Shown here: in pieces, positions 42,460-62,152 of the stretch
Position numbering within the stretch: position 1 is the first letter of the stretch
Layout: each line of letters opens with the position of its first letter
NCBI RefSeq assembly: GCF_000148645.1
Contig: NC_014541.1
Coordinates: forward strand, 3,991,139-4,055,138
Direction of reading: 5' to 3'
From: Ferrimonas balearica DSM 9799
Lineage (GTDB): Bacteria; Pseudomonadota; Gammaproteobacteria; Enterobacterales; Shewanellaceae
Length of the DNA: 64,000 bases
Notes under the pieces: generated by a model
What the model was told of the DNA's origin: nothing
Seen by the model: the letters and a program-made list of their open reading frames with translations, nothing else
The model's database searches: none
Program-made: the position numbers and the translations under genes

Positions 42460-42521
42460 AGTCGCTCCTATTGAAGACAACAGCGGGGACGGCCCGAAAG
42501 CCGCCCCCGTGGAACCGGGAA

Positions 42522-43094: not shown

Positions 43095-43119
43095 ATGGGC
43101 TTATCTCCTTAGGCCGACG

Positions 43120-45981: not shown

Positions 45982-45994
45982 GGTTGTCTCCTCA

Positions 45995-46192: not shown

Positions 46193-46316
46193 AGGCTTCC
46201 TTAGGTCTTCAGATCGAATCGTCTCGGCGCCTTAGGACGAACAATGAGACACAGATCATCAGAGCGGTGGTGGTCATGTGACGAAGGCATCATGACGTGG
46301 CGGGAAGGAAGATATC

Positions 46317-46330
46317 TTGATCTGGCTCAA
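46317..46330. promoter_or_regulatory. FNR-like site upstream of fdhX1
   Basis: TTGATCTGGCTCAA matches the FNR/EtrA consensus TTGAT-N4-ATCAA at nine of ten defined bases. It lies about 125 bases before the fdhX1 start, a plausible place for anaerobic control. Confidence 0.5.
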
Positions 46331-46518
46331 GCGGGAATTTTCAGGAATTTGTGCGCACCCTCGAATTTTCAGCGGTTTTTGTTAAAACCTCTTCGACGGT
46401 GAGTCATTGTGTCCAAGTGACCCACTTGGCAGCTTTGGTGGGAGTTGCAGGAAAGGATTTTCGGTTTCTTACCATCCGTGCGCGAATCCGGACAATTTGT
46501 GCTGTCTTTTCGCACTTT

Positions 46519-46534
46519 TGTGATCCAGATCACC
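46519..46534. promoter_or_regulatory. CRP-like site upstream of fdh operon 1
   Basis: TGTGATCCAGATCACC matches the CRP consensus TGTGA-N6-TCACA at nine of ten positions. Shewanella uses CRP for anaerobic respiration genes. It is far (about 330 bases) from fdhX1 and adjacent to the operon 2 terminator. Confidence 0.55.
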
Positions 46535-46546
46535 TGACAGCAATTC

Positions 46547-46574
46547 AAAAAAAAGCCCCGCATCGCGGGGCTTT
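46547..46574 (-). terminator. Terminator of fdh operon 2
   Basis: Stem AAAGCCCCGC/GCGGGGCTTT with T8 on the minus strand, downstream of fdhC2. Confidence 0.92.
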
Positions 46575-46627
46575 AGGTGTAATAAGAGGCATTCTTATCT
46601 GCGTCAGTGACTGACGCTGGAACACCC

Positions 46628-47611
46628 TTACTCTTTGTACTTCAGAGTACCGTCGGCTTTGATCTCGTCAAACCACACGTTGTGGTGCTGGATCGCCCAG
46701 TTCTCATCACAGTAACCGGACACCATGCACTCCATGCCACCTTCGGACATGACGGTCGCCATGAAGATGTGAACGATGGAGAACGCACAGATGATGATCG
46801 CGGCAGCGCCGTGGATGATCAGGGACAGCAGGCTCAGGTTGCGGGACGGCTCAACGTATTCCGGGAACAGCAGGATCACGCCAGTGGCGGAGATCAGGGC
46901 ACCGAAAGCGGCGAAGGTCCAGAACCACAGCTTCTCACCGGCGTTGGCAAAGCCAGCGTCCGGGTGCTTGCCTTTGAACGGGCCGAAGTTGATGTAGCCA
47001 CCAACCACCATGAACCAGGCGATGTCGTACTTCGCCGGGATCTGGTTCTTCGCCCATTTCACGGTCATCAGCAGCCAGCCCAGCATGAACGGAATCGCCA
47101 TGTAGTCGTGCACCGGCTTAGCAAACGCCGCCATGGAGGCGAAGGTTTGCTGACCCAGGTAAGGCTCGATGATCAGGCGACCTGCCAGCAGAGTCAGGCC
47201 GGTCAGGATCAGCAGCAGACACGGGATCGCACCCAGCCAGTGGATGGCCACGTCGGCTTTGGACCAACGGTAAACCATCTTGCCGGAGAAGCCGTGGTGC
47301 AGCTTGGAGATGCCGTTCACTGCGATAAACGCAGCGAATACGGCGATCATGCCAAACAGCGCCAGAGCCAGGCCCGGGGCCAGGATGTTGCTGCGCAGCG
47401 GCAGCAGACGCTCGTCCTGCGGGTTGATCAGCTGAGCGTGGAACTCGGAATCAGAAACGGTGCGGCCTTCAGCGCCCTGTTGGATCGCTTGCCACACAAC
47501 TTCTGCTTCGTTGCCCGCCTGAGCCGCTACCATACCGGCATCGCTGGCCAGGGCCAGGCCCGGCAGCAGCGCGACCATCAGCAGCAGAGGTTTCAGCATC
47601 TTGTAGAACAT
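46628..47611 (-). CDS. fdhC: Formate dehydrogenase cytochrome b subunit, copy 2
   Basis: A 327-residue protein with signal peptide (LLLMVALLPGLALA) and four helices; nearly the same as copy 1 throughout, including GNEAEVVWQAIQQGAEGRTV. Heme ligands as in copy 1. Start at 47611 with AGGAGC upstream. It is followed by its own terminator, so operon 2 ends here. Confidence 0.92.
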   Translation of the reverse strand: MFYKMLKPLLLMVALLPGLALASDAGMVAAQAGNEAEVVWQAIQQGAEGRTVSDSEFHAQLINPQDERLLPLRSNILAPGLALALFGMIAVFAAFIAVNGISKLHHGFSGKMVYRWSKADVAIHWLGAIPCLLLILTGLTLLAGRLIIEPYLGQQTFASMAAFAKPVHDYMAIPFMLGWLLMTVKWAKNQIPAKYDIAWFMVVGGYINFGPFKGKHPDAGFANAGEKLWFWTFAAFGALISATGVILLFPEYVEPSRNLSLLSLIIHGAAAIIICAFSIVHIFMATVMSEGGMECMVSGYCDENWAIQHHNVWFDEIKADGTLKYKE

Positions 47612-47664
47612 GATTGCTCCTAGTGGATGGGCCGGGGCAGCACGCCGCCCCGGCTCGTCACGCC

Positions 47665-48237
47665 TTAGCTCCAGGCGCCGTCTTTGTGGCCACGGTTAAC
47701 CACACGCTCGCGGTAGATGTCGGACACCATGCCCGCATCACCGGCCAGCAGGGCCTTGGTGGAACACAGCTCGGCACACATCGGCAGCTTGCCTTCGGCG
47801 ATACGGTTGGCACCGTACAGCTCCTGCTCCTTGATGGAGCCCGGCTCGGTGTTCGGGCCACCGGCACAGAAGGTGCACTTGTCCATTTTGCCCTTGGAGC
47901 CAAATACGGCTTTTTTCGGGAACTGGGGGGCGCCGAACGGGCAAGCGTACAGGCAGTAACCACAACCGATGCAACGCTCTTTGTCGTGCAGCACGATGCC
48001 GTCTTCAGTCTTGCTGAATACGTTCACCGGACACACTTTCATACAAGGCGCATCAGCACAGTGCATACAAGCTACAGAGATGGAGGCTTCACCCGGCTTA
48101 CCGTCGTTGATGGTTACCACGCGGCGACGCTGGATGCCCCACTCCAGAGCGGAGTTGTTTTCGTTCTTACAAGCGGTGACACAGCCGTTACATTCGATGC
48201 AGCGTTTGGTGTCACACATGAATTTCATAGTGGCCAT
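47665..48237 (-). CDS. fdhB: Formate dehydrogenase Fe-S subunit, copy 2
   Basis: A 190-residue four-cluster subunit, differing from copy 1 in few residues (for example GEASISVACMHCADAPC versus GETSISVACMHCSDAPC). The same cluster motifs and no membrane helix. It follows fdhA2 by 23 bases with GAGGAG before its start. Confidence 0.95.
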   Translation of the reverse strand: MATMKFMCDTKRCIECNGCVTACKNENNSALEWGIQRRRVVTINDGKPGEASISVACMHCADAPCMKVCPVNVFSKTEDGIVLHDKERCIGCGYCLYACPFGAPQFPKKAVFGSKGKMDKCTFCAGGPNTEPGSIKEQELYGANRIAEGKLPMCAELCSTKALLAGDAGMVSDIYRERVVNRGHKDGAWS

Positions 48238-48260
48238 TTTGGCTTATCTCCTCGTGAACC

Positions 48261-51131
48261 TTACGCTTTCTCGATCTGACACAGGGAAGACTTAGTCTCC
48301 TGCATCTGAGTGATCGGGTCGTAGCCATAGGTCATCGCGGTGTTACAGGATTCGCCGACAACGAAAGGCTTGGTGCTGATGTCGCCAGACTCCGGGTACT
48401 CCAGGTCAACGCCATGCATCACACCAGCGAAGTGGTACGGCATCCAGGTCACGCCCGGCTTAACGCGCTCGGTTACCATGGCCTGTACCTTGATACGGCC
48501 ACCCTCAGCGCCTTCCACCCATACGGTGTCGCCGTCACGCAGACCGCGGTCAGCAGCATCCACCGGGTTGATCTCGATGAACATCTCCTGCTGCAGCTCA
48601 GCCAGCCACGGGTTGGAACGGGATTCCTCACCGCCACCTTCGTACTCAACCAGACGGCCAGAGGTCATCACCAGCGGGTACTTCTTGTCGAGGTTCTCGC
48701 TGATGACCTTGTCCTGGATGGTCTTGTACAGGGTCGGCAGACGGTGTACCTGCATATCGTCGTAGGTCGGGTACTTGGCGATCAGGTCACGACGCGGGGT
48801 GTACAGCGGCTCGCGGTGTACCGGCATCGGATCCGGGAAGGTCCAAACCTTACAACGGGCTTTGGCGTTACCGAACGGGATACAACCGTGCTTCATGGCA
48901 ACGCGTACGATGCCGCCAGACAGGTCGGTCTTCCAGTTCTTGCCTTCCGCTTCCGCTTTCTCTTCGGCGGTCAGGTCGTCCCACCAGCCCAGCTGCTTCA
49001 GCATGTCGGCGGTGAATTCCGGGTAACCGTCTTCGATCTCAGCGCCCAGGGAGAAGGAGCCATCGGCCAGGATGTTTTCACCCTGGTATTCCACGCCGTA
49101 ACGGGCACGGAAGTTACCACCACCCTGCAGCACGTGCTTGGAGGTGTCGTACAGGATGTGGGTACCCGGGTGTTTCTGCTCAGCAGTACCCCAGCACGGC
49201 CACGGCAGACCGTAGGTCTCGCCCTTGAACTCGCCACCTTTGGCCTGCAGGTCTTCAACGTTGAAGGAACCCCAGTTCATGGTGTGAGCTTTGATACGCT
49301 CCGGAGATTGGCCGGACATACCGATGGTCCACATACCGCGGTTGATTTCGCGGGTGATGTCTTCCACTACCGGTGCGTTGCCTTTCACCTGAATGCGCTT
49401 GGTGTACTGCTCAGCGAAGCCAACTTTCTTGGCCAGCAGGTACATGATCTCGATGTCGTTCTTGGAGTCGAACAGCGGCTCAACCACTTGCTCACGCCAC
49501 TGAACGGAACGGCCAGAGTTGGACAGAGAACCGGTGGACTCGAACTGAGTACAGGCCGGCAGCAGGTATACGCCGTCCTTACGACGGTGCATTACGCCCG
49601 CCATGGTCGGGTACGGGTCAACCACAACCACGGTGTCCATCTTGTCCAGAGCGTCACGCACGTCGCGCTGACGGGTCTCGGTGTTCACGGACTGACCCCA
49701 GAAGAAGGCCATGCGGATGTTGTCGCGCTGAGCCAGTTTCTGCTTGTCTTCCAGAACGCCGTCGTGCCAACGGGAGCACGGCATGCCCGGGGTGTTCTGC
49801 GGCTTCTTGCCCAGGTACTCGCCCTGGTCAAAGCGGCCGTTCACCCAGCTCTCTTCCAGATCCCAAACGTGGGTCCAGTGTTTCCAGGCAGCGCTGGTCA
49901 GACCGTAGTAGCCCGGCAGAGTGTCGAACAGCAGACCCAGGTCGGTCGCGCCCTGTACGTTGTCGTGGCCACGGAAAATGTTGGTACCACCACCGGATTT
50001 GCCCATGTTGCCCAGAGCCAGCTGGAGCAGACAGTAAGCACGGGTGTTGGCGTTACCTACGGTGTGCTGGGTACCACCCATACACCATACAACGGAACCC
50101 GGACGGTTCTCGGCCATCATCTTGGCCGCGTTGTAGATGGCTTGCTCTTCTACGCCACACACTTCGGCAGCTTCAGCCAGCGGGAACTTGGCCGCTTCCT
50201 GACGGATCTCGTCCATCGCCCATACACGCTGGTCGATGAAGGTCTGGTCGTGCCAGCCGTTTTCGAAGATCACGTTCAGCATGCCGTAGATGAACGGGAT
50301 GTCGGTACCGGGGCGGATGCCAACGTGCAGGTCGGAGTGCGCAGCGGTACGGGAGAAACGCGGATCGATCACGATGATCTTCGCGCCACGCTCTTTTGCA
50401 GTCAGGATGTGCTGCATGGAGACCGGGTGCGCTTCAGCCGGGTTAGAACCGATGAAGAAGATCGCTTTGGCGTGACGGATGTCGTTGAAGGAGTTGGTCA
50501 TCGCGCCGTAACCCCAGGTATTTGCCACACCAGCTACGGTGGTGGAGTGACAGATACGGGCGGAGTGGTCGACGTTGTTGGTACCCCACATGGCCGCAAA
50601 CTTACGGTACATGTAGCAACCTTCGTTGGAGAACTTGGCAGAACCCATGAAGTACACGGAATCCGGGCCGGACTCTTCGCGGATCTTCAGCATCTGGTTG
50701 CCAACTTCCTCGATGGCTTGTTCCCAAGACAGCTTCTTCCACTTGCCGCCTTCAAGCTTCATCGGGTACTTAACGCGTTTGATGGAGTGGCCATGCTCAC
50801 GCAGTGCAGCACCTTTAGCACAGTGCCCACCACGGTTGAAGGGATGGTCGAAGGCCGGCTCCTGCCCAGTCCAGACACCATTCTGAACTTCGGCGTAAAC
50901 ACCACAACCTACTGCACAAGCGGAACATACGGTGCGCTTGATTTCGGTCGGAGCGTTCGGATCTACGTGGGAAGCGGCTTCTACGCGCTTCACCATGCCT
51001 GCACCCAGCATGGATGCGGCAGCAATACCACCGGTGGTGATACCGGCGTTTTTCAGAAACTGGCGACGGTTCAGGCCCAGCGGGGCATCGGTCTTGGTCG
51101 CAACAGCTTGCTGGTTAGGAGTCAGTTTCAT
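48261..51131 (-). CDS. fdhA: Formate dehydrogenase catalytic subunit, copy 2
   Basis: A 956-residue Mo/W-bis-MGD enzyme with a Tat signal (LNRRQFLKNAGITTGG). The cluster ligands are C69, C72, C76 and C104 in the variant TVCSACAVGC. The catalytic residue is Cys194 (SARICHSTTVAG). It is the most divergent of the three: VEEQAIYNAAKMMAEN, GLTSAAWKHW and ACTQFESTGSLS differ from the text shared by copies 1 and 3. It may differ in expression or kinetics. Confidence 0.95.
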   Translation of the reverse strand: MKLTPNQQAVATKTDAPLGLNRRQFLKNAGITTGGIAAASMLGAGMVKRVEAASHVDPNAPTEIKRTVCSACAVGCGVYAEVQNGVWTGQEPAFDHPFNRGGHCAKGAALREHGHSIKRVKYPMKLEGGKWKKLSWEQAIEEVGNQMLKIREESGPDSVYFMGSAKFSNEGCYMYRKFAAMWGTNNVDHSARICHSTTVAGVANTWGYGAMTNSFNDIRHAKAIFFIGSNPAEAHPVSMQHILTAKERGAKIIVIDPRFSRTAAHSDLHVGIRPGTDIPFIYGMLNVIFENGWHDQTFIDQRVWAMDEIRQEAAKFPLAEAAEVCGVEEQAIYNAAKMMAENRPGSVVWCMGGTQHTVGNANTRAYCLLQLALGNMGKSGGGTNIFRGHDNVQGATDLGLLFDTLPGYYGLTSAAWKHWTHVWDLEESWVNGRFDQGEYLGKKPQNTPGMPCSRWHDGVLEDKQKLAQRDNIRMAFFWGQSVNTETRQRDVRDALDKMDTVVVVDPYPTMAGVMHRRKDGVYLLPACTQFESTGSLSNSGRSVQWREQVVEPLFDSKNDIEIMYLLAKKVGFAEQYTKRIQVKGNAPVVEDITREINRGMWTIGMSGQSPERIKAHTMNWGSFNVEDLQAKGGEFKGETYGLPWPCWGTAEQKHPGTHILYDTSKHVLQGGGNFRARYGVEYQGENILADGSFSLGAEIEDGYPEFTADMLKQLGWWDDLTAEEKAEAEGKNWKTDLSGGIVRVAMKHGCIPFGNAKARCKVWTFPDPMPVHREPLYTPRRDLIAKYPTYDDMQVHRLPTLYKTIQDKVISENLDKKYPLVMTSGRLVEYEGGGEESRSNPWLAELQQEMFIEINPVDAADRGLRDGDTVWVEGAEGGRIKVQAMVTERVKPGVTWMPYHFAGVMHGVDLEYPESGDISTKPFVVGESCNTAMTYGYDPITQMQETKSSLCQIEKA

Positions 51132-51140
51132 TGGTTCTCC

Positions 51141-51332
51141 TTACAGACCGCGAGCAGCGGCGTAGTAGTTGCGAACGTGTTCGGACTCTTGATAGCCCTT
51201 TTTCTTCGCCTCGGCAGCAGGCTTGGCCTGTGCCAGAGCAGCCGGTGCGGCCATCACAGCGGCACCAGCCGCGGTGCCGGTGGCAACCTGCTTCAGGAAC
51301 TGGCGACGAGCCAGAGAGGGTTGGTGTTTCAT
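51141..51332 (-). CDS. fdhX: FdhX, small Tat-signal protein of fdh operon 2
   Basis: A 63-residue protein with a Tat signal (LARRQFLKQVATGTAAGAAV) and tail GYQESEHVRNYYAAARGL. The start at 51332 is preceded by AAGGATG; the longer frame up to 51566 covers the promoter region and is rejected. Nine bases separate it from fdhA2. Confidence 0.86.
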   Translation of the reverse strand: MKHQPSLARRQFLKQVATGTAAGAAVMAAPAALAQAKPAAEAKKKGYQESEHVRNYYAAARGL

Positions 51333-51424
51333 AATCATCCTTAGTCGTTCATGAAGTGGAGAGCGCCGATATGGCGGCCCACCCATAAGCGGGGCTAAGG
51401 ATGGCTTACCGGGCACTTGAGAAA

Positions 51425-51440
51425 ATTGATCCCGGTCACG
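51425..51440. promoter_or_regulatory. CRP-like site upstream of fdhX2
   Basis: ATTGATCCCGGTCACG carries TGA-N6-TCAC, seven or more matches to TGTGA-N6-TCACA. It sits about 93 bases before the fdhX2 start. The site at 60240 has nearly the same core (TGATCCCGTTCACG). Confidence 0.5.
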
Positions 51441-51655
51441 AAGAAATTTGCGATGAATTGGCCAAAACTGCCTGTTAAAGCCCAGTTCTGTTAGGGTTTT
51501 GTAAATGATGGGCCGTTTTGTCCCACCAAACTTTCTGGCGGCAACGGGCCCCTCTGCCCGGGTCATTTTGGGTTATTTTGACCCGTTGGTGACAATGCCT
51601 CGAGATAACCCACAAAATGTCAGATTTGCGGACCAGATCACGCGTCGCCGGGCAT

Positions 51656-51681
51656 AAAAAACCCCGCCAGCGCGGGGTTTT
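51656..51681 (-). terminator. Terminator of fdh operon 3
   Basis: Stem ACCCCGC/GCGGGGT with T6 on the minus strand, about 50 bases past the fdhC3 stop. Confidence 0.88.
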
Positions 51682-51729
51682 CGGGTGGTTTACGAGCGGC
51701 GATAAGAACGCCTCTCAATTCGCCGACAG

Positions 51730-52785
51730 TCAGCCCTGTTTGTACTGGATGCTGCCGTCTGCCTTGATCTCGTCATACCACACATTGTGGTGCTGCTTGG
51801 CCCAGTTCTCATCCACGTAGCCACTGGTCATGGCCGGGAAGCCACCCTCCGACAACACCGTCGCCATAAAGATGTGCACCACGGTAAAACCGGTCAGCAC
51901 GATGGCGGAGATGCCATGGATAAAGATGGCGGTGAGACTGGCGGTACGGCTGGGATCGACCTGCCCCGGGAAGAGCATGACGATGCCGGAGCCGATGATG
52001 GCCAGGCCAAAGATGGTGAAGCTCCAGAACCACAACTTCTCGCCGGCATTGGAGAACCCGGAGTCCGGGTGCTTGCCTTTGAACGGCCCAAAGTTGAGGT
52101 AACCGCCGACCACCATAAACCACTTCAGGTCATAGGCGGCGGGGATGTTGTGCTTCATCCAGCGCAGCATGGCAATCACCGCAAAGATGGAAAACGGGAT
52201 CGCCATATAGTCGTGGATCGGCTTGGCGATGGCCGCCAGCGCCCCCACCCCCTCCTGACCGAGGAAGGACCCGAACACAAAGCGTCCCGCCATCAACGAC
52301 AAGCCTGTCAGAATCAACAGGATGCAGGGGATGGCCATCAGCCAGTGCACCAGGATATCCACCTTGGGCCAGCGCAACACCTCGACACCGGAGTAACCCT
52401 TCTCCAGTCGGGCCGCACCGTTGACCAACACGAACAGCGCGAAGATCACGATCATCCCAAACAGGGCCAGGGCCAGCACCTGAGACAGCCAACCGGCGCG
52501 AGCCTGGATCAGCATGGGGTCATAGGTGTTGATCAGGTTGTTGTGGAAACGACTGGTGGAGTTGGTGGTGCCCACCTCGCCATCCTTCACTGCGCTCCAC
52601 ATGGGATCGAGTTCAGGCTTGCCAGGACTGGTACCCTCCACCTCTGCCGCCTGGGCCGCCATCACAGACTGGACCAGGGCAGCATCCGCTTCCGCTTTGG
52701 CGTCGTTGGCCTGGGCTGGCACGATCATCATCATGCCAAGCGCCAGAGCCGCCAACGTGCGCCGCAGCGTCACTAAGCGTTTCAT
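51730..52785 (-). CDS. fdhC: Formate dehydrogenase cytochrome b subunit, copy 3 (divergent)
   Basis: A 351-residue protein, 24 residues longer than copies 1 and 2 and much less similar. The signal peptide (LAALALGMMMIVPAQA) leads to a longer, different periplasmic segment (TSPGKPELDPMWSAVKDGEV). The four-helix core keeps DILVHWLM, KPIHDYMAIP, IFIHGISA and FTVVHIF. The C-terminal WAKQHHNVWYDEIKADGS is common to all three. The start at 52785 is preceded by GGGAGGAC. Confidence 0.92.
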   Translation of the reverse strand: MKRLVTLRRTLAALALGMMMIVPAQANDAKAEADAALVQSVMAAQAAEVEGTSPGKPELDPMWSAVKDGEVGTTNSTSRFHNNLINTYDPMLIQARAGWLSQVLALALFGMIVIFALFVLVNGAARLEKGYSGVEVLRWPKVDILVHWLMAIPCILLILTGLSLMAGRFVFGSFLGQEGVGALAAIAKPIHDYMAIPFSIFAVIAMLRWMKHNIPAAYDLKWFMVVGGYLNFGPFKGKHPDSGFSNAGEKLWFWSFTIFGLAIIGSGIVMLFPGQVDPSRTASLTAIFIHGISAIVLTGFTVVHIFMATVLSEGGFPAMTSGYVDENWAKQHHNVWYDEIKADGSIQYKQG

Positions 52786-52801
52786 ACTCCGTCCTCCCTG
52801 T

Positions 52802-53383
52802 TCAGTTGCTGGCCCAGCCAGCTTCCTCAGCACCCCGAACCGCGACACGCTGACGGAAGATCTGGGACACCACTTCGGCGTCACCGGCCAGCAGCGACTT
52901 GGTGGAGCACACCTCGGCGCAGAACGGCAGCTTGCCTTCGGCGATGCGGTTGGCCCCGTACAGACGCGCTTCCTTCTCGGACCCCGGTTCGGCATCCGGA
53001 CCACCGGCACAGAAGGTGCACTTGTCCATCTTGCCACGGGCGCCAAAGGCGGTCTGTTTCGGGAATTGCGGAGCGCCAAACGGGCAGGCGTACAGGCAGT
53101 AACCGCACCCGATGCACTTGTCCTTGCTGTGGCGAATGATGCCATCGGCAGTCTGCTCAAAGCAGTCCGCCGGGCACACCGCCATGCAGGGTGCGTCGGA
53201 GCAGTGCATGCAGGCCACCGAGATGGAGACCTCCTTGCCCTCAACCCCGTCGTTCATGGTCACCACGCGTCGCCGCGCGATGCCCCACTCCAGGGCACTG
53301 TTGTTGGCGTTCTTACAGGCGACGGTACAACCGTTGCATTCAATGCAGCGCTTGGTGTCGCACAGAAATTTCATCGTAGCCAT
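52802..53383 (-). CDS. fdhB: Formate dehydrogenase Fe-S subunit, copy 3
   Basis: A 193-residue four-cluster subunit with CIECNGCTVAC, CMHCSDAPCMAVCP, CIGCGYCLYACP and CTFCAGG...CAEVC. It differs from copies 1 and 2 across the protein and has a longer C-terminus (EEAGWASN). It follows fdhA3 by 14 bases. Confidence 0.95.
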   Translation of the reverse strand: MATMKFLCDTKRCIECNGCTVACKNANNSALEWGIARRRVVTMNDGVEGKEVSISVACMHCSDAPCMAVCPADCFEQTADGIIRHSKDKCIGCGYCLYACPFGAPQFPKQTAFGARGKMDKCTFCAGGPDAEPGSEKEARLYGANRIAEGKLPFCAEVCSTKSLLAGDAEVVSQIFRQRVAVRGAEEAGWASN

Positions 53384-53397
53384 AGTGACTCCCGTCC

Positions 53398-56262
53398 TTA
53401 AGCCTTGGTGATCTGGCAGAGCGACACTTTGGTCTCCTGCATCTGGGTAACGATGTCATAGCCGTAGGTCAGGGCCGTGTTGGCCGATTCCCCCTGAACG
53501 TATGGCACCGTGCCGTCGGGATACTGGGGCACCAGCGATTCGCCCTCGAAAATCCCCGCGAAGTGATAGGGCATAAAGCATTCGCCCGGGATCACCCGCT
53601 GTGTCACCAATGCGTGGATATAGAGTTTCGGCCCTTCCGGTGAGTGCAGCACAACGGCATCACCGTCCTGGATGCCCCGGTCCGCCGCATCCGCCGGGTT
53701 GATCTCAACAAACATGGTTTGCTGCAACTCGGCCAGCCACGGGTTGGAACGGGTCTCCTCGCCGCCCCCTTCGTATTCCACCAGGCGTCCGGACGTCACC
53801 ACCATGGGGAACTTCTTGTCCAGATCCTCGGCCATCACCTTCTCCTGAATGGAGCGGTAGAGGGTCGGCAGTCGCGCTACCTGGCGGTCTTCGTAACTCG
53901 GGTACTTGACCATCAGATCGCGGCGCGGTGAATAGAGCGGTTCGCGGTGAATCGGCACTTCATCCGGGAAGGTCCAGACCCGACAACGGGCCCGCGCATT
54001 GCCGTAAGGGATACAGCCATGCTTCATCGCCACCCGCTGGATGCCGCCGGACAGGTCGGTCTTCCAGTTGCGGCCTTCGGCTGCCACCTTCTCTTCGGCG
54101 GTCAGTTCATCCCACCACCCCAGCTGCTTCAGCATCTCGGCGGTGAACTCCGGGAAGCCCTCACCGATGTCGTTACCGGCGGAGCCGGGATCATCGGCCA
54201 ACAGGTTTTCACCTTCGTACTCCACACCGAAGCGGGCACGGAAGTTACCGCCCCCCTCCATCACATGTTTGGAGGTGTCGTACAGAATGTGAGTGCCCGG
54301 GTGCTTCAGCTCCGGGGTGCCCCAGCAGGGCCACGGCAGGCCGTAGGTTTCGCCCTTGCACGGGCCGCCTTTGGCTTGCAGATCTTCCCACTCGAAGGTG
54401 CCCCAGTTTTCCTGGTGCTGCTTGAGGCGTTCCGGCGACTGGCCGGTGTAGCCCACGGTCCACATGCCGCGGTTGTATTCGCGGGTGATGTCCTCAATCA
54501 GCGGCACGCTGCCCTGCACCTCGATGTTCTTGAACATCTGGTCGGCAAAGCCCAGCTTCTTGGCGAACAGGTACATGATCTCGTGGTCCGGCTTGGACTC
54601 GAACATCGGCTCCACCACCTGGCTGCGCCACTGCAGCGAGCGGTTGGAGTTGGAGACCGACCCGTAGGTTTCGAACTGGGTGGCTGCCGGCAGCAGGAAG
54701 ACGCCATCGGTGCGGGTGCTCATCACCCCGGCCATGGTCGGATAGGGGTCAACCACCACCACCGCGTCCATCTTGTTCAGGGCTTCACGCACTTCGCGGC
54801 CACGGGTTTCGGTGTTCACCGACTGGCCGAGGAAGAAGGCCAGGCGAACGTTGTCCTTCTGACCCAGTTTGGCGGTGTCTTCCATCACCCCGTCATGCCA
54901 ACGGGAGCAGGGAATACCCGCAGAGGTCATCGGCTGTTTGCCCAGATAGGTGCCCTGGTCAAAGCGGGCTTTGACCCACTCGTAATCCAGTTCCCACACC
55001 CGGGACCAGTGCTGCCAGGCCCCTTCGGACAGGCCGTAGTAACCGGGCAGGTTGTCGAACAACAGACCGAAGTCGGTGGCGCCCTGCACGTTGTCGTGGC
55101 CACGGAAGATGTTGGCACCGCCACCGGACACGCCCATGTTGCCCAGCGCCAGCTGCAGGATGCAGTAAGCCCGGGTGTTGGCGTTACCGATGGTGTGCTG
55201 GGTGCCGCCCATACACCAGACGATGGTGCCGGGACGGTTGTCCGCCAGCATCTTGGCCACACGGTAGACCTGTTTCTCGCCGGCGCTGCAGATGTTTTCC
55301 ACTTCATCCGGCGGGTAGTTCTTCACCTCTTCGCGGATGGCGTCCAAACCCCAAACGCGACGGGAGATAAAGTCTTTGTCTTCCCAGCCATTCTCAAAGA
55401 TGTGCCAGAGCAGGCCATAGACGAACGGGATGTCGGTACCGGGTCGGATATGCACGTACTCGTCGGCGTGCGCCGCAGTACGGGTGAAGCGGGGATCGAC
55501 CACGATCATCTTGGAGCCGCGCTCTTTGGCGGTAAGAATGTGCTGCATTGCCACCGGGTGCGCTTCAGCGGCGTTGGAGCCGATGAAGATCATGCTCTTA
55601 CTGTTGTGCATGTCGTTGTAAGAGTTGGTCATGGCACCGTAGCCCCAGGTGTTGGCCACACCGGCTACCGTGGTGGAGTGACAGATCCGGGCGGAGTGGT
55701 CGACATTGTTGGTGCCCCACATCGCCGCGAATTTGCGGTAGAGATAAGATTGCTCGTTGTTGGTCTTGGCCGAGCCCATAAAGTAGATGGAATCGGGGCC
55801 AGACTCTTCGCGGATCTTCAGCATCAGGTCGCCAATCTCGTTGACCGCCTGATCCCAGGACAGCTTGGTCCACTTACCACCGCTCAGCTTCATCGGGTAC
55901 TTCACCCGCTTTTCACTGTGAGTGTGGTGAATCACCGAAGCGCCCTTGGCGCAATGGCCACCACGGTTGATGGGGTGATCGAACGCCGGTTCCTGGTCTA
56001 CCCAGATCCCATTCTGCACCTTGGCGTAAAGACCGCAGCCAACGGAACAGTGAGAGCAGATGGTTTTCACCGTCTTGACGTCACCGCCACCCACCGATTC
56101 GGCCGCCTCAGCCTTTCGCACCATTCCACTGCCGAGCATGGAGGCGGCGGCGATGCCACCCGCCGTGACACCGGCATTTTTCAGGAATTGACGACGATTG
56201 AGTCCAAGCGACTCCTTATCGGAAGTGGATGCTTTGGTTGGTACTGTACGTGTGAGCTTCAT
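53398..56262 (-). CDS. fdhA: Formate dehydrogenase catalytic subunit, copy 3
   Basis: A 954-residue Mo/W-bis-MGD enzyme. Tat signal (LNRRQFLKNAGVTAGG), cluster ligands C69, C72, C76 and C104 (TICSHCSVGC), catalytic Cys194. Long stretches are shared with copy 1 (for example LLFDNLPGYYGLSEGAW). The start at 56262 follows AGGAGG. This copy lies next to the maturation genes, so it may be the ancestral one. Confidence 0.95.
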   Translation of the reverse strand: MKLTRTVPTKASTSDKESLGLNRRQFLKNAGVTAGGIAAASMLGSGMVRKAEAAESVGGGDVKTVKTICSHCSVGCGLYAKVQNGIWVDQEPAFDHPINRGGHCAKGASVIHHTHSEKRVKYPMKLSGGKWTKLSWDQAVNEIGDLMLKIREESGPDSIYFMGSAKTNNEQSYLYRKFAAMWGTNNVDHSARICHSTTVAGVANTWGYGAMTNSYNDMHNSKSMIFIGSNAAEAHPVAMQHILTAKERGSKMIVVDPRFTRTAAHADEYVHIRPGTDIPFVYGLLWHIFENGWEDKDFISRRVWGLDAIREEVKNYPPDEVENICSAGEKQVYRVAKMLADNRPGTIVWCMGGTQHTIGNANTRAYCILQLALGNMGVSGGGANIFRGHDNVQGATDFGLLFDNLPGYYGLSEGAWQHWSRVWELDYEWVKARFDQGTYLGKQPMTSAGIPCSRWHDGVMEDTAKLGQKDNVRLAFFLGQSVNTETRGREVREALNKMDAVVVVDPYPTMAGVMSTRTDGVFLLPAATQFETYGSVSNSNRSLQWRSQVVEPMFESKPDHEIMYLFAKKLGFADQMFKNIEVQGSVPLIEDITREYNRGMWTVGYTGQSPERLKQHQENWGTFEWEDLQAKGGPCKGETYGLPWPCWGTPELKHPGTHILYDTSKHVMEGGGNFRARFGVEYEGENLLADDPGSAGNDIGEGFPEFTAEMLKQLGWWDELTAEEKVAAEGRNWKTDLSGGIQRVAMKHGCIPYGNARARCRVWTFPDEVPIHREPLYSPRRDLMVKYPSYEDRQVARLPTLYRSIQEKVMAEDLDKKFPMVVTSGRLVEYEGGGEETRSNPWLAELQQTMFVEINPADAADRGIQDGDAVVLHSPEGPKLYIHALVTQRVIPGECFMPYHFAGIFEGESLVPQYPDGTVPYVQGESANTALTYGYDIVTQMQETKVSLCQITKA

Positions 56263-56273
56263 CCTTAACCTCC

Positions 56274-56468
56274 TTATTTACGCAACGTGGCGTAGTAGGC
56301 CAGGACATGGGGGGATTCACGATAGCCGGACGGCTTCGTGTCGGGAGTGGCTTCAGCCGGGGTTGCTTTAGCCTGAACCGTACCGCTTGAGAGGGCAACA
56401 GCGCCCGCCCCAAGGCCCAGGGCCTTGAGAGCGCGGCGGCGGTCCAATCGGGTTTGCCGATCGTTCAT
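56274..56468 (-). CDS. fdhX: FdhX, small Tat-signal protein of fdh operon 3
   Basis: A 64-residue protein with a Tat-like signal (LDRRRALKALGLGAGAVALSS) lacking the RRQFLK form of the other two, and tail GYRESPHVLAYYATLRK. It keeps the GYxES-x-HVxxYY motif. It lies 11 bases before fdhA3 and is preceded by GGAGG. Confidence 0.82.
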   Translation of the reverse strand: MNDRQTRLDRRRALKALGLGAGAVALSSGTVQAKATPAEATPDTKPSGYRESPHVLAYYATLRK

Positions 56469-56561: not shown

Positions 56562-57188
56562 TTAGCCGGCCTGTTCTACCTGTACATCCAGGATCAGGTT
56601 GCCAAACTCCACCTTCTCCGCAGCGAAGAACGCCTGGCCCAGTGCCGCTACCGCGACATAGAACGAAGCGTGCTTGGCCGCAGCCAGATCGGTAAAGAAC
56701 TGGTCTACCCAAGGGGCCAAATGTTTCTGCCAGAACGGGATCTGGTCCTGCTGCCGGCCTTCCAGCAACAGAAACGCCATCACCTCGCACAGGGCAGACA
56801 GATGGTCCTCAGGCTCTTTCACGTTCTCTTCACGGGCAAAGCCCAGTCGGGTCAGGTCCTGACGCAGCAGGGCCAGCGGCTGGTCCATCAGGGAACCGGT
56901 CAGGTACCAGCTGATGTACGGGATCACTTCGCCGTGACCCAGGCCGATGAAGAGGTTGAAAAACTCGTCGTCCAGCTGGCTGTCCAGATGGGTCTGGGCC
57001 GCCAGTTTCAGGCCATGCCAGGCCTTGCCCATGTCGCTGTCGTTGTCCTCGTCCAACTCCAGATTGGCCAGGAACTGCATCAGCTCCGGATTCGGCACCT
57101 GGCGCAGCAGGGCTGACAGCAACTGGTAGATGTCCGCGCGAAGTTGCTGGTGTTCAGATACGACCCGAGTGGTTTGTTGTTCAGTCAT
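56562..57188 (-). CDS. TorD-family chaperone for formate dehydrogenase
   Basis: A 208-residue all-helical protein with the family core EFFNLFIGLGHGEVIPYISWYLTG and the C-terminal region of TorD/DmsD-like proteins. These bind Tat signals of molybdoenzymes and hold them for cofactor insertion. Its place upstream of fdhX3-A3 makes FdhA the likely client. An adjacent GTG at 57191 is an alternative start; GAGGTAG favours the ATG. Confidence 0.88.
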   Translation of the reverse strand: MTEQQTTRVVSEHQQLRADIYQLLSALLRQVPNPELMQFLANLELDEDNDSDMGKAWHGLKLAAQTHLDSQLDDEFFNLFIGLGHGEVIPYISWYLTGSLMDQPLALLRQDLTRLGFAREENVKEPEDHLSALCEVMAFLLLEGRQQDQIPFWQKHLAPWVDQFFTDLAAAKHASFYVAVAALGQAFFAAEKVEFGNLILDVQVEQAG

Positions 57189-57200
57189 CACTACCTCAAA

Positions 57201-58889
57201 TTAGACCCGGAGTTGCTTTTCGGGATCGTTCAGAATGTCGGTGAACATGTCTTTCACCCGACAGTCTTCGCACATTTTCAGACGATTCAGCGCGTCACCA
57301 GCAAAGGCACTGTGGCCCGCCAGCGCGGTGGTCATCTTCTCAATCACCGCTTTGGTGGCGAACGGCTTACCGCAGGTCACACACTCGAACGGTTCCTCCT
57401 CCTTCAGCACCTGCTCGGTTTGACGCGCTTCGCGGTCGAGCTGGATGCGGGAGGTCAGGGTAATCGCTTTCTCCGGACAGGCGCGCTCACACAGGCCGCA
57501 CTGCACACAGGCTTGCTCGGTGAACTTCAGGGCCGGGCTGTCGCCACCGTCCATCAGGGCACGGCTCGGGCACAGCGCGGCGCAGCTCATGCACAGGGTG
57601 CACTTGTCGACGTCGACGCTGACGGTGCCATACGGAACGCGCGGCAGGTCCAGCACCTCGGTGCTGCCTGCGCTGGCGCCGTTGATGTGGTCCAGAGCGT
57701 TAAACAGGGTGTCCCGTTTGGCCAGGTCTTTGCCGAAAGCAGCAATCGGCAGCTCAGCAAAGGCGGCGCTTTCGGCCAGGATGGCGTCCAGCTGGTCCAG
57801 CTCCGCGGTGCTGATCAGGCGCACACGGTCGGCCGGCTCACCCACTGCCTGCAGCAGGGTGGTCACCAGATCGTGCTCACTGCGTACCAGGGTCAGCAGA
57901 GTTTCCGGGGTTTGTTCGGTGGTCAGCACCAGCACCTGACGGGCGCCCCAGGCCAGGGTGGCCAGCCAGCTGTCGATGCCCGCTACCGCCACCTCTTCCA
58001 GCGCCACCGGCAGCACGCCACCAGGCAGCTGGCGCAGGGCGGAGAGGGCAGCCTCACCGGCGCTGTCGTCGTGCAGCACCACCGCCGGGCGCTGGTCAGA
58101 CAGCTCCAGGTAGCGGGTCAGCAGACGCTTAACGTAATCCTTGAGGATCGCCGGGGTGGGCTGGTCGTAGCTCAGTGCACCGGTCGGGCAGGCGGCGGTG
58201 CAGCTGCCGGCACCGTGGCACAGGTGCGGATCAACGGTGATCTTGTGGTCGACACTCTCGATGGCGTCGGCCGGGCAGACGTTCAGACAGCGGGTGCAGC
58301 CATCAATGCCACTGGAGTGGTGGGCACAGATGTCGTAGTTCACTTTGACGTAGCGCGGCTTGTCGAACTGGCCAATCAGCTGCGGCAGTTGCGCCAGGGC
58401 CGCGGCCAGCTTGTCGGCATCGTCACCCACGTGGAAGTAACCGGGCGGCAGCAGCTCCAGGTTCAGGACCGGCTGTTGGCCGAGGTCGAGCACCAGGTCG
58501 TAATGGGGGCGACGAACCGCACCCGGCGCCAGTTCCTGCTCAACGCCATCAACCTTGATAAAGGCCTGGAACTGACCCAGGAACCCTTTCAGCGACACAG
58601 TACGGCTGAAGTAGGCGGGCAGGGATTCGGTGGCTTCGGCGGCAGCCATCACCTTGTCCAGGTGGGCTTCGTCCTGGCTGGTCACCGCTTCGGTGGCCAC
58701 CAGAGTGCGGCTGGCCATGCCGTCCAGTTCAGCGGCGGCCAGACGGATCAAATCTTCCGGCCCGATGATCAACAGGTGGCCGGCGGTATTGTAGGAGACC
58801 GTCTGCGGGATCAGGTTCTCCAGCATGGTGACTTGGGCCAGGCTCTGCTCACGGGCCGGATCCATCACCGGGATTTGGCTATTGCTCAC
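57201..58889 (-). CDS. Multi-cluster [4Fe-4S] protein linked to formate dehydrogenase
   Basis: A 562-residue soluble protein. Cluster motifs lie near residues 188-245 (CTRCLNVCP, CHGAGSCTAACP) and 430-472 (CTLCMSCAALCP, CVQCGLCERACP), and two CxxC pairs near 503 and 540 (CVTCGKP, CEDCR). A non-cluster domain lies between. Genes of this type flank fdh operons in Shewanella, so an electron-transfer or maturation role is inferred. The start is taken as GTG at 58889, behind AGGAAA; the frame continues to a TTG at 58937. Confidence 0.82.
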   Translation of the reverse strand: MSNSQIPVMDPAREQSLAQVTMLENLIPQTVSYNTAGHLLIIGPEDLIRLAAAELDGMASRTLVATEAVTSQDEAHLDKVMAAAEATESLPAYFSRTVSLKGFLGQFQAFIKVDGVEQELAPGAVRRPHYDLVLDLGQQPVLNLELLPPGYFHVGDDADKLAAALAQLPQLIGQFDKPRYVKVNYDICAHHSSGIDGCTRCLNVCPADAIESVDHKITVDPHLCHGAGSCTAACPTGALSYDQPTPAILKDYVKRLLTRYLELSDQRPAVVLHDDSAGEAALSALRQLPGGVLPVALEEVAVAGIDSWLATLAWGARQVLVLTTEQTPETLLTLVRSEHDLVTTLLQAVGEPADRVRLISTAELDQLDAILAESAAFAELPIAAFGKDLAKRDTLFNALDHINGASAGSTEVLDLPRVPYGTVSVDVDKCTLCMSCAALCPSRALMDGGDSPALKFTEQACVQCGLCERACPEKAITLTSRIQLDREARQTEQVLKEEEPFECVTCGKPFATKAVIEKMTTALAGHSAFAGDALNRLKMCEDCRVKDMFTDILNDPEKQLRV

Positions 58890-59061
58890 TCTACGTTTCC
58901 TAGTCGGTCGTTGCTCTGTTGTCGGTGAGGCGGACAATCCGCCCCGGCTGGCAACGTTCCCTTGTTTCCGGTTGACCCGGGCACCAGATGCTCACCACTG
59001 GCGTTCACTCTATTAGTTAGCAAGGGATGTACCAGCACTTATGATATTTGAGTCGGCTGAA

Positions 59062-59682
59062 TTACGCCTGACTCCGAGTGCTTTCGGTTTCCCCGCCTTC
59101 TTGCGGGTCATTTTGTCCAATATCCTCACGGACATTGGGTAATTCTGACGGCGTTTGCGCCGACTCAGCCTGGGCCAGTTCCACGCCCTCGGCGCGCTCG
59201 GAATCGGCCGCCTCCAGCTTGGTCTCTTGCTGCGCCACGGCCTCATCCACCTGCTCCACCGCTTCGGTCACGTGGCGGAATACCTTCTTGGCCACTTCCG
59301 CCGCCACTGCAGCGGTCAGTTTGGGCTGGGCGGCGTAGTCGAGGTCGTATTCGCAAAGGCCATCGCGGATGTTGTACTGCGGCTGTTTCCACAGCGCGCG
59401 CAGCGCCTCTTTGCGTTGAGTCGGGTCAACCCCGGGCTTGAGGTAGTCGGCAAAGCTGCCGCCCTGCTCAATGCTGGTGGGGTCCGGCAATGCCTCGGCC
59501 TCAGCAGCCTCTTCGGCAGCGGCCTCCACCTGGGCTTCGGTTTGCCCCTCAACCGGGGCAGCCGCCTCGGCAGTGGGCTCAGCATCATCGACTGGCTCAA
59601 CCGTGTCGCGGACCAGTTCGGCCTCTTCGGCCTCCTTGGCGACCTCGGCCTTACGCTGTTGCCAGCGGGACAGAAAGCTCAT
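59062..59682 (-). CDS. DUF3306 protein
   Basis: A 206-residue acidic protein starting MSFLSRWQQRKAEVAKE, the DUF3306 hallmark. Ala/Glu-rich regions (about 25-70 and 125-180) flank a conserved core (FADYLKPGVDPTQRKEALRALWKQPQYNIRDGL). DUF3305 and DUF3306 genes regularly sit beside molybdenum formate dehydrogenases. The start overlaps the DUF3305 stop. Function unknown. Confidence 0.86.
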   Translation of the reverse strand: MSFLSRWQQRKAEVAKEAEEAELVRDTVEPVDDAEPTAEAAAPVEGQTEAQVEAAAEEAAEAEALPDPTSIEQGGSFADYLKPGVDPTQRKEALRALWKQPQYNIRDGLCEYDLDYAAQPKLTAAVAAEVAKKVFRHVTEAVEQVDEAVAQQETKLEAADSERAEGVELAQAESAQTPSELPNVREDIGQNDPQEGGETESTRSQA

Positions 59683-60137
59683 CAGGCACCCTCCCCACGG
59701 GCTTTCACTTCACCGCGGACGTCGATGTGCTTGCGGCGATGAGCCTGGATCGGCGCTTCGCCGTGACGGGTGATAAAGGACTCAATCCAGCAGCCGATCG
59801 CTTCCGGAATGGCGCAGGTCAGCACCGGAGTGTCACCCTCCAGCGCACCCGCGGCGATGTTCTGGTTGGCGGTCACCGACATCGGCACCGGCACCCCATC
59901 GCCCTTGTCATCACAGATGATGAACAGCTTGGGATTGTCCAGGTCCAGGTTCAGGCGGTAGTTGGCGCGCTCATCCAGGAACAGTTCAATCGCCACCAGA
60001 TGTGCCCCCTCCGGCTTTTCACCGGAAGCCGGCAGCAGGCTATCAACCTCGTAGTTGGTCTGAGTCCAGCGGCCGACGGTCACCTGTTTGGCTTTCAGGG
60101 TGACGTATAAAGGCCAGATCGATTCGCTGTGTTGCAT
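59682..60137 (-). CDS. DUF3305 protein
   Basis: A 151-residue protein with WPLYVTLKAKQVTVGRW and LHLVAIELFLDERANYRLNL-like text, typical of DUF3305. The C-terminus (IESFITRHGEAPIQAHRRK) is basic. It is the first gene of the minus-strand maturation block and precedes DUF3306 with a one-base overlap of stop and start. The start at 60137 follows GGGAG; the longer frame to 60203 lacks a site. Confidence 0.84.
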   Translation of the reverse strand: MQHSESIWPLYVTLKAKQVTVGRWTQTNYEVDSLLPASGEKPEGAHLVAIELFLDERANYRLNLDLDNPKLFIICDDKGDGVPVPMSVTANQNIAAGALEGDTPVLTCAIPEAIGCWIESFITRHGEAPIQAHRRKHIDVRGEVKARGEGA

Positions 60138-60239
60138 TCCACGCTCCCGTGTCGATGTGGATTGGGGCCCAAGGCCACCGGGAATCCTAACTGCTCCGTC
60201 CACTGCAAGTATTGTTCCATCTTAAAACCATCGCCACAG

Positions 60240-60259: not shown

Positions 60260-60300
60260 TTGTCCCCATTGGGACAATTTGTCCTTGGCCAGTGGGACAG
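60260..60300. promoter_or_regulatory. Palindromic operator pair in the fdhD divergent promoter
   Basis: A perfect inverted repeat TTGTCCC-CATT-GGGACAA spans 60260-60277. A second, looser one, TTGTCC-N9-GGGACAG, spans 60279-60300. Two spaced copies of one palindrome type suggest a dimeric regulator, perhaps the HTH protein encoded at 61247. Confidence 0.6.
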
Positions 60301-60416
60301 CTTGGGGCACTGAGTCGCTGCAGAGGTGATCCGGATCTCACTGTCAGGGCCATTCTCAGCTGGAACAGGTTTTGCATTTCCTTAAACTGAGTTTAGATCC
60401 CTTGGCAAGTTATTGA

Positions 60417-61250
60417 ATGACCACGACCGTGAAACGCCCCCGCCTCACCCGCACCCATGCGGAAGCGCCCCTGACCATTGCGGTGACCGCGGTGGACGAA
60501 AAGGGACAGATCCAGGAAAAGCAGATCGCCTGCGAGCGACCGCTGACCCTTTACCTTAACTGGCAACCCATCGTCACCCTGATGACCCTGGGCGCCCGGC
60601 CGGAAGCGCTGGCTCTGGGTTACCTGAAAAACCAGGGCTTTATCAGCGACATCGAACGGGTGGAGTCGGTCATCGTCGATTGGGAGGTCAACTCCGCGGC
60701 GGTGATCACCAAGGAGGACGTCAGCCATGTCGAGAAAAAGCTGGAGGAGAAAACCGTCACCAGTGGCTGCGGCCAGGGCACGGTCTTCGGCAGCTTTACC
60801 GCCGGCATCGACGACATCCGGTTGCCCACACCGTCGCTGACCCAGAGTGGCATCTACGCTCTGCTCAAAAACCTCAGCCAGTACAACGACACCTACAAGA
60901 ATGCCGGTGCCGTACACGGTTGTGGCATCTGCGAAGGTGACCGCATCCTCAGCTTCGTTGAGGACGTGGGCCGCCACAACGCAGTCGATACCCTGGCCGG
61001 TGAGATGTGGCTGGAGGGGATCGACGGTGGCGACAAGATCTTCTACACCACCGGCCGACTGACCTCGGAGATGGTGATCAAAGTGGCCAAGATGGGCATT
61101 CCCGTGCTGCTGTCCCGCTCCGGCGTGACCGAAATGGGCCTGAGCCTGGCCACCCAACTGGGCATCACCATGATTGCCCGCGCCAAAGGACGGCACTTCC
61201 TGGTTTACCACGGCGCCGAAACCATCGAATTTGACGGAGCCGAGGCATGA
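60417..61250 (+). CDS. fdhD: FdhD, formate dehydrogenase sulfurtransferase
   Basis: A 277-residue protein with the FdhD core (VTSGCGQGTVFGSF with C118, VEDVGRHNAVDTLAGEM, GRLTSEMVIKVAKMGIP, LVYH). FdhD passes sulfur from IscS to the Mo-bis-MGD cofactor. The E. coli CxxC is not present at C118 (SGCGQG has a single Cys); another CxxC lies at 169-172 (HGCGICEGD). It diverges from the maturation block and overlaps the downstream regulator gene. Confidence 0.92.
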   Translation: MTTTVKRPRLTRTHAEAPLTIAVTAVDEKGQIQEKQIACERPLTLYLNWQPIVTLMTLGARPEALALGYLKNQGFISDIERVESVIVDWEVNSAAVITKEDVSHVEKKLEEKTVTSGCGQGTVFGSFTAGIDDIRLPTPSLTQSGIYALLKNLSQYNDTYKNAGAVHGCGICEGDRILSFVEDVGRHNAVDTLAGEMWLEGIDGGDKIFYTTGRLTSEMVIKVAKMGIPVLLSRSGVTEMGLSLATQLGITMIARAKGRHFLVYHGAETIEFDGAEA

Positions 61251-62152
61251 CCCAGAGCACTGATAACCTGTTTATGAACGCCAAGCAGGTGGCGGACTAC
61301 CTCGATCTCAACGAGAAGAAGGTGTACGCCATGGCCAACGAGCGCCAGTTGCCGGGCACCAAGATCACCGGCAAATGGCTGTTCCCCAAAACCCTGATCG
61401 ACCGCTGGGTGATGGAGTCCTGCCACAGCGGCATGCTGTCTGACCGCCTGATCATCACCGGTTCCGATGACCCTCTGCTGCACTGGGTGGTGGGCCGGGT
61501 CAGCCAACGCATCGGCAGCAGCGGCCTGGTGAACTACTCCGCCACCAGCTCCGGCCTCGGCCTCTCCCTGCTGGCCCAGGGTCTGGCAGACATCTGCTGC
61601 CTGCACTGGGGCAATGAATCCGAGCGTGACCTGCGCCACCCGGCGCTGCTCAAGCGCCATGCCCTGCACAAGCAGTGGGTCATGGTGCACGCCGCCAGCC
61701 GCGAGTTTGGCCTGCTGATGCGTAACGAACACCTGCACCTGGGTCAGGATGTCGAGCAGGCACTGTCTCTGCGCTACCGCTGGCTGACCCGCCAGGAGGG
61801 CGCCGGTGCCCGTTACCACTTCGACAACTGGCTGGCCGAGCGCGGCATGGCGGGCACCGACCTCAATATCGTCGGCACCGCCTTCAGTGAGCGCGAACTG
61901 GCCGCCTCGGTGGCCCGCGGTGAAGCGGACTTCGGCTTCGGTTGCCACGGCATCGCCGGCGAGATGGGACTGGCGTTTGTGCCTCTGGGTCGCGAATCGT
62001 TCGATCTGGTGATGCCCCAGGGCGTCTACTTCCGCCAGCACCTGCAGCAGCTGTTCTCGGTGATGCAGAGTCCGGACACCCTGTCTCAGGCCCAGCGCCT
62101 TGGCGGCTATGACCTGACCGACAGCGGCAAGTTGATCTGGAGTCCGGTCTGA
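61247..62152 (+). CDS. HTH protein with PBP-like ligand domain, probable fdh/molybdate regulator
   Basis: A 301-residue protein. Residues 10-55 form an excisionase/MerR-like helix-turn-helix (NAKQVADYLDLNEKKVYAMA, then TGKWLFPKTLIDRWV). The remainder is a PBP_like domain related to molybdate/tungstate-binding proteins (TGSDDPLLHWVVGRVSQRIG, LAQGLADICCLHWG, GTAFSERELAASVARGEADFGFG). It is coupled to fdhD by an ATGA overlap. It may sense molybdate or tungstate and control the fdh genes; that is inferred. Confidence 0.82.
   Translation: MTQSTDNLFMNAKQVADYLDLNEKKVYAMANERQLPGTKITGKWLFPKTLIDRWVMESCHSGMLSDRLIITGSDDPLLHWVVGRVSQRIGSSGLVNYSATSSGLGLSLLAQGLADICCLHWGNESERDLRHPALLKRHALHKQWVMVHAASREFGLLMRNEHLHLGQDVEQALSLRYRWLTRQEGAGARYHFDNWLAERGMAGTDLNIVGTAFSERELAASVARGEADFGFGCHGIAGEMGLAFVPLGRESFDLVMPQGVYFRQHLQQLFSVMQSPDTLSQAQRLGGYDLTDSGKLIWSPV

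Follow-up and report, generated by a model that had tools for sequence, protein, structure and literature searches.

The window analysed here, a 64-kb stretch of the Ferrimonas balearica genome (4.28 Mb in one contig), carries on its minus strand, between positions 56562 and 60137, four consecutive genes which encode, in transcription order, a DUF3305 protein, a DUF3306 protein, a large iron-sulphur (Fe-S) protein, hereafter the hub, and a TorD-like chaperone. A first-pass annotation of the window had proposed four open reading frames in this region, and all of them were found there, with Pfam families in agreement for DUF3305, DUF3306 and the TorD-like protein. The DUF3305 stop is overlapped by the DUF3306 start, the hub gene has a GTG start preceded by an AGGA motif, and the TorD gene starts about 9 bases past the hub gene. 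Downstream of the block lie the gene of a small twin-arginine translocation (Tat) protein and then three successive FdhABC sets (41.5-56.3 kb), and the enzyme was classed as an FDH3-type formate dehydrogenase because its FdhB passes the NCBI FDH3 beta-subunit model NF038355. Loci of Ferrimonas, Shewanella and Aquisalimonas all preserve this order of the four genes, which is therefore not a chance arrangement; in alphaproteobacteria, the hub is often transcribed divergently from the DUF genes, or encoded near moaA, an ABC-transporter ATPase or an HTH-PBP regulator. The annotation had also presented the four genes as lacking a known joint function and as the best candidate in the window for an incompletely described system; the genes are real, but their co-location had already been published by Bay et al. 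2015 (PMC4464133), who described torD/dmsD-fdh operons with fer4, DUF3305, DUF3306 and a small Tat protein and assigned no function to them. No transmembrane segment was detected in any of the four block proteins by 19-residue hydropathy, the maximum values being 0.60-1.35 versus 3.16 for FdhC. This bore out the annotated lack of a membrane anchor in the hub, which has no evident signal peptide either, and spoke against a membrane location for DUF3305 and DUF3306, listed as putative membrane proteins in PMC4464133.

Co-occurrence of the block genes with formate dehydrogenase, a check proposed together with the annotation, was examined in an even draw of 249 genomes from the phylum of the window and in a second, wider draw of 398 genomes. 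The marker for the FdhA clade was set at E <= 1e-100, with the weakest match still scoring more than 1000 bits. Among the 249 genomes, the hub profile matched 42, while DUF3306, DUF3305 and the FDH3-type FdhA matched 41 each. These last three sets were made up of the very same 41 genomes, spanning 24 genera, and the hub set comprised those and only one more, G204. Far from being widespread without a formate dehydrogenase, DUF3305 and DUF3306 never occurred without the FdhA clade in this sample, and neither was found in E. coli or in 13 other control genomes. The same agreement held inside single genera: in one (g10), a species without the hub also lacked the FDH3-type FdhA, and in another (g83), two species had all the genes and two had none. 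All 19 carriers newly found in the 398-genome draw harboured an FDH3-type FdhA, and in 40 of the 41 carriers no more than 15 kb separated the hub gene from fdhA. The annotated link between a maturation block and a Tat-exported formate dehydrogenase was thus strongly supported by their co-occurrence in the same 41 of 249 genomes. TIGR02811, the model matched by the small Tat protein, was discarded as a co-occurrence marker, since its low scores pick up Tat signals in general.

G204 (L100:2979-10332), the sole hub-bearing genome of the 249 without FDH3, encodes a divergent hub paralogue of 511 aa, whose gene follows those of an ArrA/PhsA-like Tat molybdoenzyme, a QrcC/ArrB-like subunit, an NrfD/HmcC-like membrane subunit and a TorD-like protein that ends in a CxxC...CxxC segment resembling one found in the hub (see below). 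No second paralogue of this kind appeared in the wider search of 398 genomes. Since the paralogue adjoins another molybdoenzyme, the hub family is not strictly bound to formate dehydrogenase, and since its neighbours are still a TorD-type chaperone and a Tat molybdoenzyme, a maturation role is favoured over a catalytic one.

A recent review describes fdhE as systematically tied to periplasmic formate dehydrogenase operons, and leaves the assembly of some such enzymes open (PMC10609526). FdhE (PF04216) was absent from the Ferrimonas genome, the E. coli control being positive, and a Pfam scan of the hub gave no PF04216 match. FdhE was missing from 39 of the 41 carriers and present in 36 of the 208 other genomes (p 0.055). 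FDH3 nearly always does without FdhE, a pattern suggestive of a replacement of FdhE by the block.

For the analysis of the hub, 28 homologues sharing 31-79% identity with the window protein were aligned, PDB sequences were searched with this alignment, and an AlphaFold model (predicted local distance difference test, pLDDT, 90.7) was compared by Foldseek and VIA-align; the best Foldseek matches of the model included HdrA, HycF and MvhD. HdrA matched the hub in two colinear stretches, corresponding to its N-terminal/Rossmann part and to its C-terminal two-cluster domain. In the predicted model, residues 25-259 superposed on HdrA over 220 residues (Z 11.7, root mean square deviation, rmsd, 3.5) and residues 265-386 on MvhD over 122 of 137 residues (Z 14.9, rmsd 2.7), so that the model assigns domain 264-386 to the MvhD/FlpD fold. 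The FAD-binding GxGxxG motif of HdrA is absent, GPEDLI / GRDExA standing there in all 28 aligned homologues. None of the cysteines that ligate the 2Fe-2S cluster of MvhD is present either: the window domain has no cysteine and none is conserved among 14 members. A Pfam FlpD match to this domain was obtained for just 1 of the 14 (0.0047), and a sequence-only PDB search with it returned no relevant match. The C-terminal half aligned with E. coli HycF, including all four cysteines of the HycF quartet, which in HycF binds a single metal ion and faces the formate dehydrogenase FdhF (PMC9474812). A profile built on the quartet only had been swamped by eukaryotic C2H2 zinc fingers matching the first CxxC, a problem resolved with a longer HycF-like profile.

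The hub is accordingly a chimera of HdrA, MvhD/FlpD and HycF parts, in which 19 out of 19 cysteines fall in metal motifs, namely two diclusters (7 + 8) and the quartet (4). The annotation had counted four cluster motifs and two lone CxxC pairs; the count was right, but the pairs are not lone, as they make up one quartet homologous to the mononuclear-metal site of HycF. In the HdrA-type two-cluster domain, the cysteines are C188, C198, C201 and C205 for the first motif and C224, C230 and C234 for the second, which has four in most alphaproteobacterial forms; having only three in the gammaproteobacterial lineage, this second motif suggests a [3Fe-4S] cluster. Alphaproteobacterial hubs also carry about 90 additional N-terminal residues.

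The remaining block proteins gave more limited clues. The TorD-like protein scored 112 bits against PF02613 (cut-off 22.2), and fell below the TorD equivalog (64.7 bits versus a cut-off of 132) as well as the DmsD equivalog; judged by these scores, it is a clear member of the TorD/NarJ family and not TorD sensu stricto, the trimethylamine N-oxide (TMAO) reductase chaperone. For DUF3305, the predicted model was confident (pLDDT 89.4) and no fold match was found in the PDB (no Foldseek hit with E <0.1 and no VIA-align Z >2.6), which does not prove a new fold. In Telmatospirillum (L030:5411-6544), a MobA protein (PF12804) has a C-terminal DUF3305 (PF11749) and its gene adjoins fdhD in an FDH3 cluster; NCBI holds a model for such MobA-DUF3305 fusions. 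This fusion is the best available hint that DUF3305 may act at the step of the molybdenum-bis(pyranopterin guanine dinucleotide) (Mo-bisPGD) cofactor. For DUF3306, whose only clue is its context, a role as an acidic adaptor may be proposed. Near DUF3305, alphaproteobacterial loci (L048, L061 and others) recurrently encode DUF6352, DUF6505, a biotin/lipoate ligase-like protein and a WD40-cytochrome c protein.

Features of the block and of its surroundings in the 64-kb window (i-E, independent E-value; pI, isoelectric point)
Feature	Position	Strand	Evidence
DUF3305 protein, 151 aa	59682..60137	-	PF11749 2.8e-16
DUF3306 protein, 206 aa, acidic pI 4.2, no membrane segment	59062..59682	-	PF11748 6.6e-34
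Fe-S hub, 562 aa, HdrA-MvhD-HycF chimera	57201..58889	-	profile and structure matches
Hub residues 25-180, HdrA-like Rossmann domain, GxGxxG lost	58350..58817	-	HdrA profile i-E 4.6e-7; VIA Z 11.7
Hub residues 184-243, HdrA C-terminal-type two-cluster domain, 7 Cys	58161..58340	-	HdrA i-E 1.2e-11
Hub residues 264-386, predicted MvhD/FlpD-fold domain without cysteines	57732..58100	-	VIA Z 14.9; Foldseek TMt 0.64-0.67
Hub residues 418-485, HycF-like two [4Fe-4S] domain, 8 Cys	57435..57638	-	HycF i-E 5.5e-13; Foldseek 7z0s_F/7z0t_F
Hub residues 496-546, HycF-type quartet C503, C506, C540, C543	57252..57404	-	aligned with HycF C117, C120, C155, C158
TorD/NarJ-family chaperone, 209 aa	56562..57191	-	PF02613 2.7e-32
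Small Tat-signal protein, fdhX type	56274..56468	-	TIGR02811, 52.4 bits vs cut-off 48.45
FdhA, catalytic subunit, first FDH3 copy, likely client	53398..56262	-	PF00384, TIGR01591-like
FdhB, FDH3 beta subunit	52802..53383	-	NF038355, 323 bits vs cut-off 240
FdhC, cytochrome b subunit	51730..52770 (start codon approximate)	-	TIGR01583, 167 bits vs cut-off 115.85
FdhD, divergent, sulfurtransferase-type accessory protein	60417..61250	+	PF02634 1e-77
Sigma-54-type -24/-12 element TGGAACAATACTTGCA, upstream of DUF3305	60204..60219	-	pattern search
Sigma-54-type -24/-12 element TGGAACAGGTTTTGCA, upstream of FdhD	60361..60376	+	pattern search
Two TGTCC...GGACA palindromes between the divergent promoters, candidate activator sites	60261..60299		sequence

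The gap between fdhD and DUF3305 harbours TGGAAC-N5-TTGCA on both strands, the search pattern for such elements having only three matches in the whole window. These sigma-54-type elements recur in most Ferrimonas loci, and TGGCA[CT]-N5-TTGC[AT] is found upstream of DUF3305 in Shewanella and Aquisalimonas loci. Across related Ferrimonas loci, the arms of the two palindromes are conserved and their spacers have diverged, for which reason they look like candidate sites for an enhancer-binding activator. In Vibrio parahaemolyticus, expression of VP1510-VP1515, annotated as an (Fe-S)-binding protein, a formate dehydrogenase chaperone, a hypothetical protein and formate dehydrogenase subunits, was reduced 9- to 27-fold (log2 -3.2 to -4.8) in an rpoN mutant; the authors reported no direct RpoN binding there, and the Vibrio Fe-S gene is likened to the hub by annotation only (PMC9817140). 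Following fdhD, at 61247-62152, the window encodes an HTH_17 + PBP_like protein, a candidate molybdate- or cofactor-responsive regulator, relatives of which adjoin lone hub genes and moaA in alphaproteobacterial loci (L018, L028, L029, L038, L046 and L058).

Further observations concern the neighbourhood of the block. The three successive FdhABC sets (41476-56262) have this one accessory block in common, and further small TIGR02811 Tat proteins precede the second and third fdhA (~51159-51326 and ~46013-46183). A locus titled Marinobacter nauticus DP3N21-5 (L004) showed the Ferrimonas gene order, with a hub 91% identical, and that genome is probably misnamed.

Given the exact co-occurrence, the HycF-type half of the hub, the MobA-fused partner and the TorD neighbour, we propose that the block is a cytoplasmic maturation module dedicated to FDH3, in which the hub docks on the pre-export FdhA-FdhB and carries electrons, a proposal that we regard as evenly poised between right and wrong. 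The module would probably fill the place held by FdhE for FdnG/FdoG-type enzymes. As regards the docking, the direction of electron flow, the step that uses the electrons and the roles of the two DUF proteins, we infer the following course. Apo-FdhA would be held by the TorD-like protein, DUF3305 would work at the Mo-bisPGD step alongside the divergently encoded FdhD, and DUF3306 would serve as the acidic adaptor. The hub, being cytoplasmic and devoid of membrane segments, can meet the exported FdhA only before export; it would use its HycF-like half to dock on the cytoplasmic FdhA-FdhB, in the way that HycF contacts FdhF and HycB, and its clusters would pass electrons to the cofactor or the clusters of FDH3, for cofactor activation or checking. 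The folded FdhA-FdhB would then be exported by Tat. The HdrA and MvhD parts, with the flavin motif and the 2Fe-2S ligands lost, may be a scaffold or the docking side for an electron donor. The annotation's view of the hub as a cytoplasmic electron carrier or cofactor loader would fit this chimeric architecture.

Several points weigh against this proposal. Two identical sets of 41 genomes would arise under random placement with a probability of ~1e-47, a figure far too small given the relatedness of the genomes, and the co-occurrence statistic is thus inflated by shared ancestry. The FdhE contrast is not significant alone, and in sequence the MvhD-like domain resembles MvhD only very weakly, its relation resting on predicted structure. 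Literature searches turned up neither mutants nor biochemical work for the hub, DUF3305 or DUF3306, and the hub could instead serve redox checking or electron export.

In redox checking, the hub would monitor FdhA-FdhB for its redox or cluster state and free only the finished enzyme to Tat, without donating electrons, like an FdhE-type proofreader. The HycF quartet has indeed been proposed to tune FdhF affinity through its redox state (PMC9474812), and hub-bearing genomes almost always lack FdhE, a presumed proofreader that likewise has CxxC iron sites (PMC10609526); nevertheless, eight plus seven cluster cysteines kept over a large divergence seem more than a checkpoint needs, and we consider this role unlikely, if the best placed of the alternatives. 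Electron export, in which the hub, as a cytoplasmic redox partner, would take electrons from the pre-export FdhA-FdhB or link it to another acceptor, has its precedent in HydN and YsaA, which raise the dye-linked activity of FDH-H and for which alternative electron routes were proposed (PMC6004506), and HycF and HdrA modules do belong to electron-transfer complexes. FDH3, however, is exported (FdhA bears a Tat signal) and has its own cytochrome b, the electron-input modules of the hub lack the flavin motif and the 2Fe-2S ligands, and the hub co-occurs exactly with TorD and with two proteins of non-redox type, a sign of assembly; such a partner is therefore rather improbable. Least probable of all, and by our estimate very much so, is a hub acting as a scaffold that supplies Fe-S clusters to FdhA and FdhB: the protein is rich in clusters and linked to FDH3, but its motifs are of ferredoxin type and have all or nearly all of their ligands, as is typical of stable clusters for electron transfer, and every one of its 19 cysteines sits in motifs common to electron-transfer proteins.

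Beyond the maturation module dedicated to FDH3, the hub might represent a distinct class of molybdoenzyme maturase, a redox-active TorD partner that gives electrons for cofactor activation before Tat export and is used by FDH3 and, via the paralogue, also by one or more other molybdoenzymes associated with TorD, while DUF3305 would handle Mo-bisPGD with a new fold; this generalization we put forward tentatively, as more doubtful than the module itself. The gene neighbourhood has been known since 2015 (PMC4464133), and DUF3305 was in no other open paper searched. As far as our searches reach, it is new how the hub is built from domains, that it co-occurs exactly with FDH3, that FdhE is nearly absent, that a paralogue stands at another molybdoenzyme, and that the sigma-54-type promoters are conserved. 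About one sixth of the sampled genomes have a periplasmic formate dehydrogenase nearly always without FdhE and, in the sample, always with the hub/DUF3305/DUF3306 set. If this set is a maturase, the missing parts for FDH3 assembly are named, what to co-express for such formate dehydrogenases in a foreign host is indicated, and the need of a dedicated electron donor for molybdenum cofactor loading or sulfuration becomes testable.

Among known systems, the hub resembles HycF of the E. coli formate hydrogenlyase (7z0s/7z0t), to which the C-terminal half of the hub corresponds in its two [4Fe-4S] motifs and CxxC...CxxC quartet (Foldseek TMt 0.62-0.71). HycF, however, is a permanent subunit of a complex-I-like hydrogenase, whereas HdrA and MvhD parts precede this half in the hub, whose gene lies with those of the exported FDH3; unlike HycF/HyfH, the hub is not a separate subunit of a hyc/hyf operon but contains this domain within a 562-aa fusion in an fdh operon. 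With HdrA/MvhD (5odc, 7bkb, 8rvu), the hub shares the colinear HdrA Rossmann and two-cluster domains followed by the MvhD fold, but it lacks the flavin motif, most of the HdrA flavin region and the MvhD cysteines, and no HdrBC-type partner was found among the neighbouring genes seen. FdhE is likewise accessory to periplasmic formate dehydrogenases and has CxxC metal sites (PMC10609526), and differs in its PF04216 family, which is absent from the Ferrimonas genome and 39 of the 41 carriers and unmatched in the hub. FdhM, the TorD homologue of Campylobacter jejuni FdhABC, is also a TorD-type chaperone encoded with a periplasmic formate dehydrogenase, although described without a hub, DUF3305 or DUF3306 (PMC10609526). 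HydN and YsaA of E. coli are ferredoxin-like helpers raising formate dehydrogenase activity (PMC6004506), but they are small HycB-like proteins serving the cytoplasmic FDH-H, in contrast to the large HdrA/HycF chimera. The operons reported in 2015 (PMC4464133) have an identical gene neighbourhood and were already associated with fdh, to which the present analysis adds the domain analysis, a genome-wide co-occurrence test and a proposed function, not given there.

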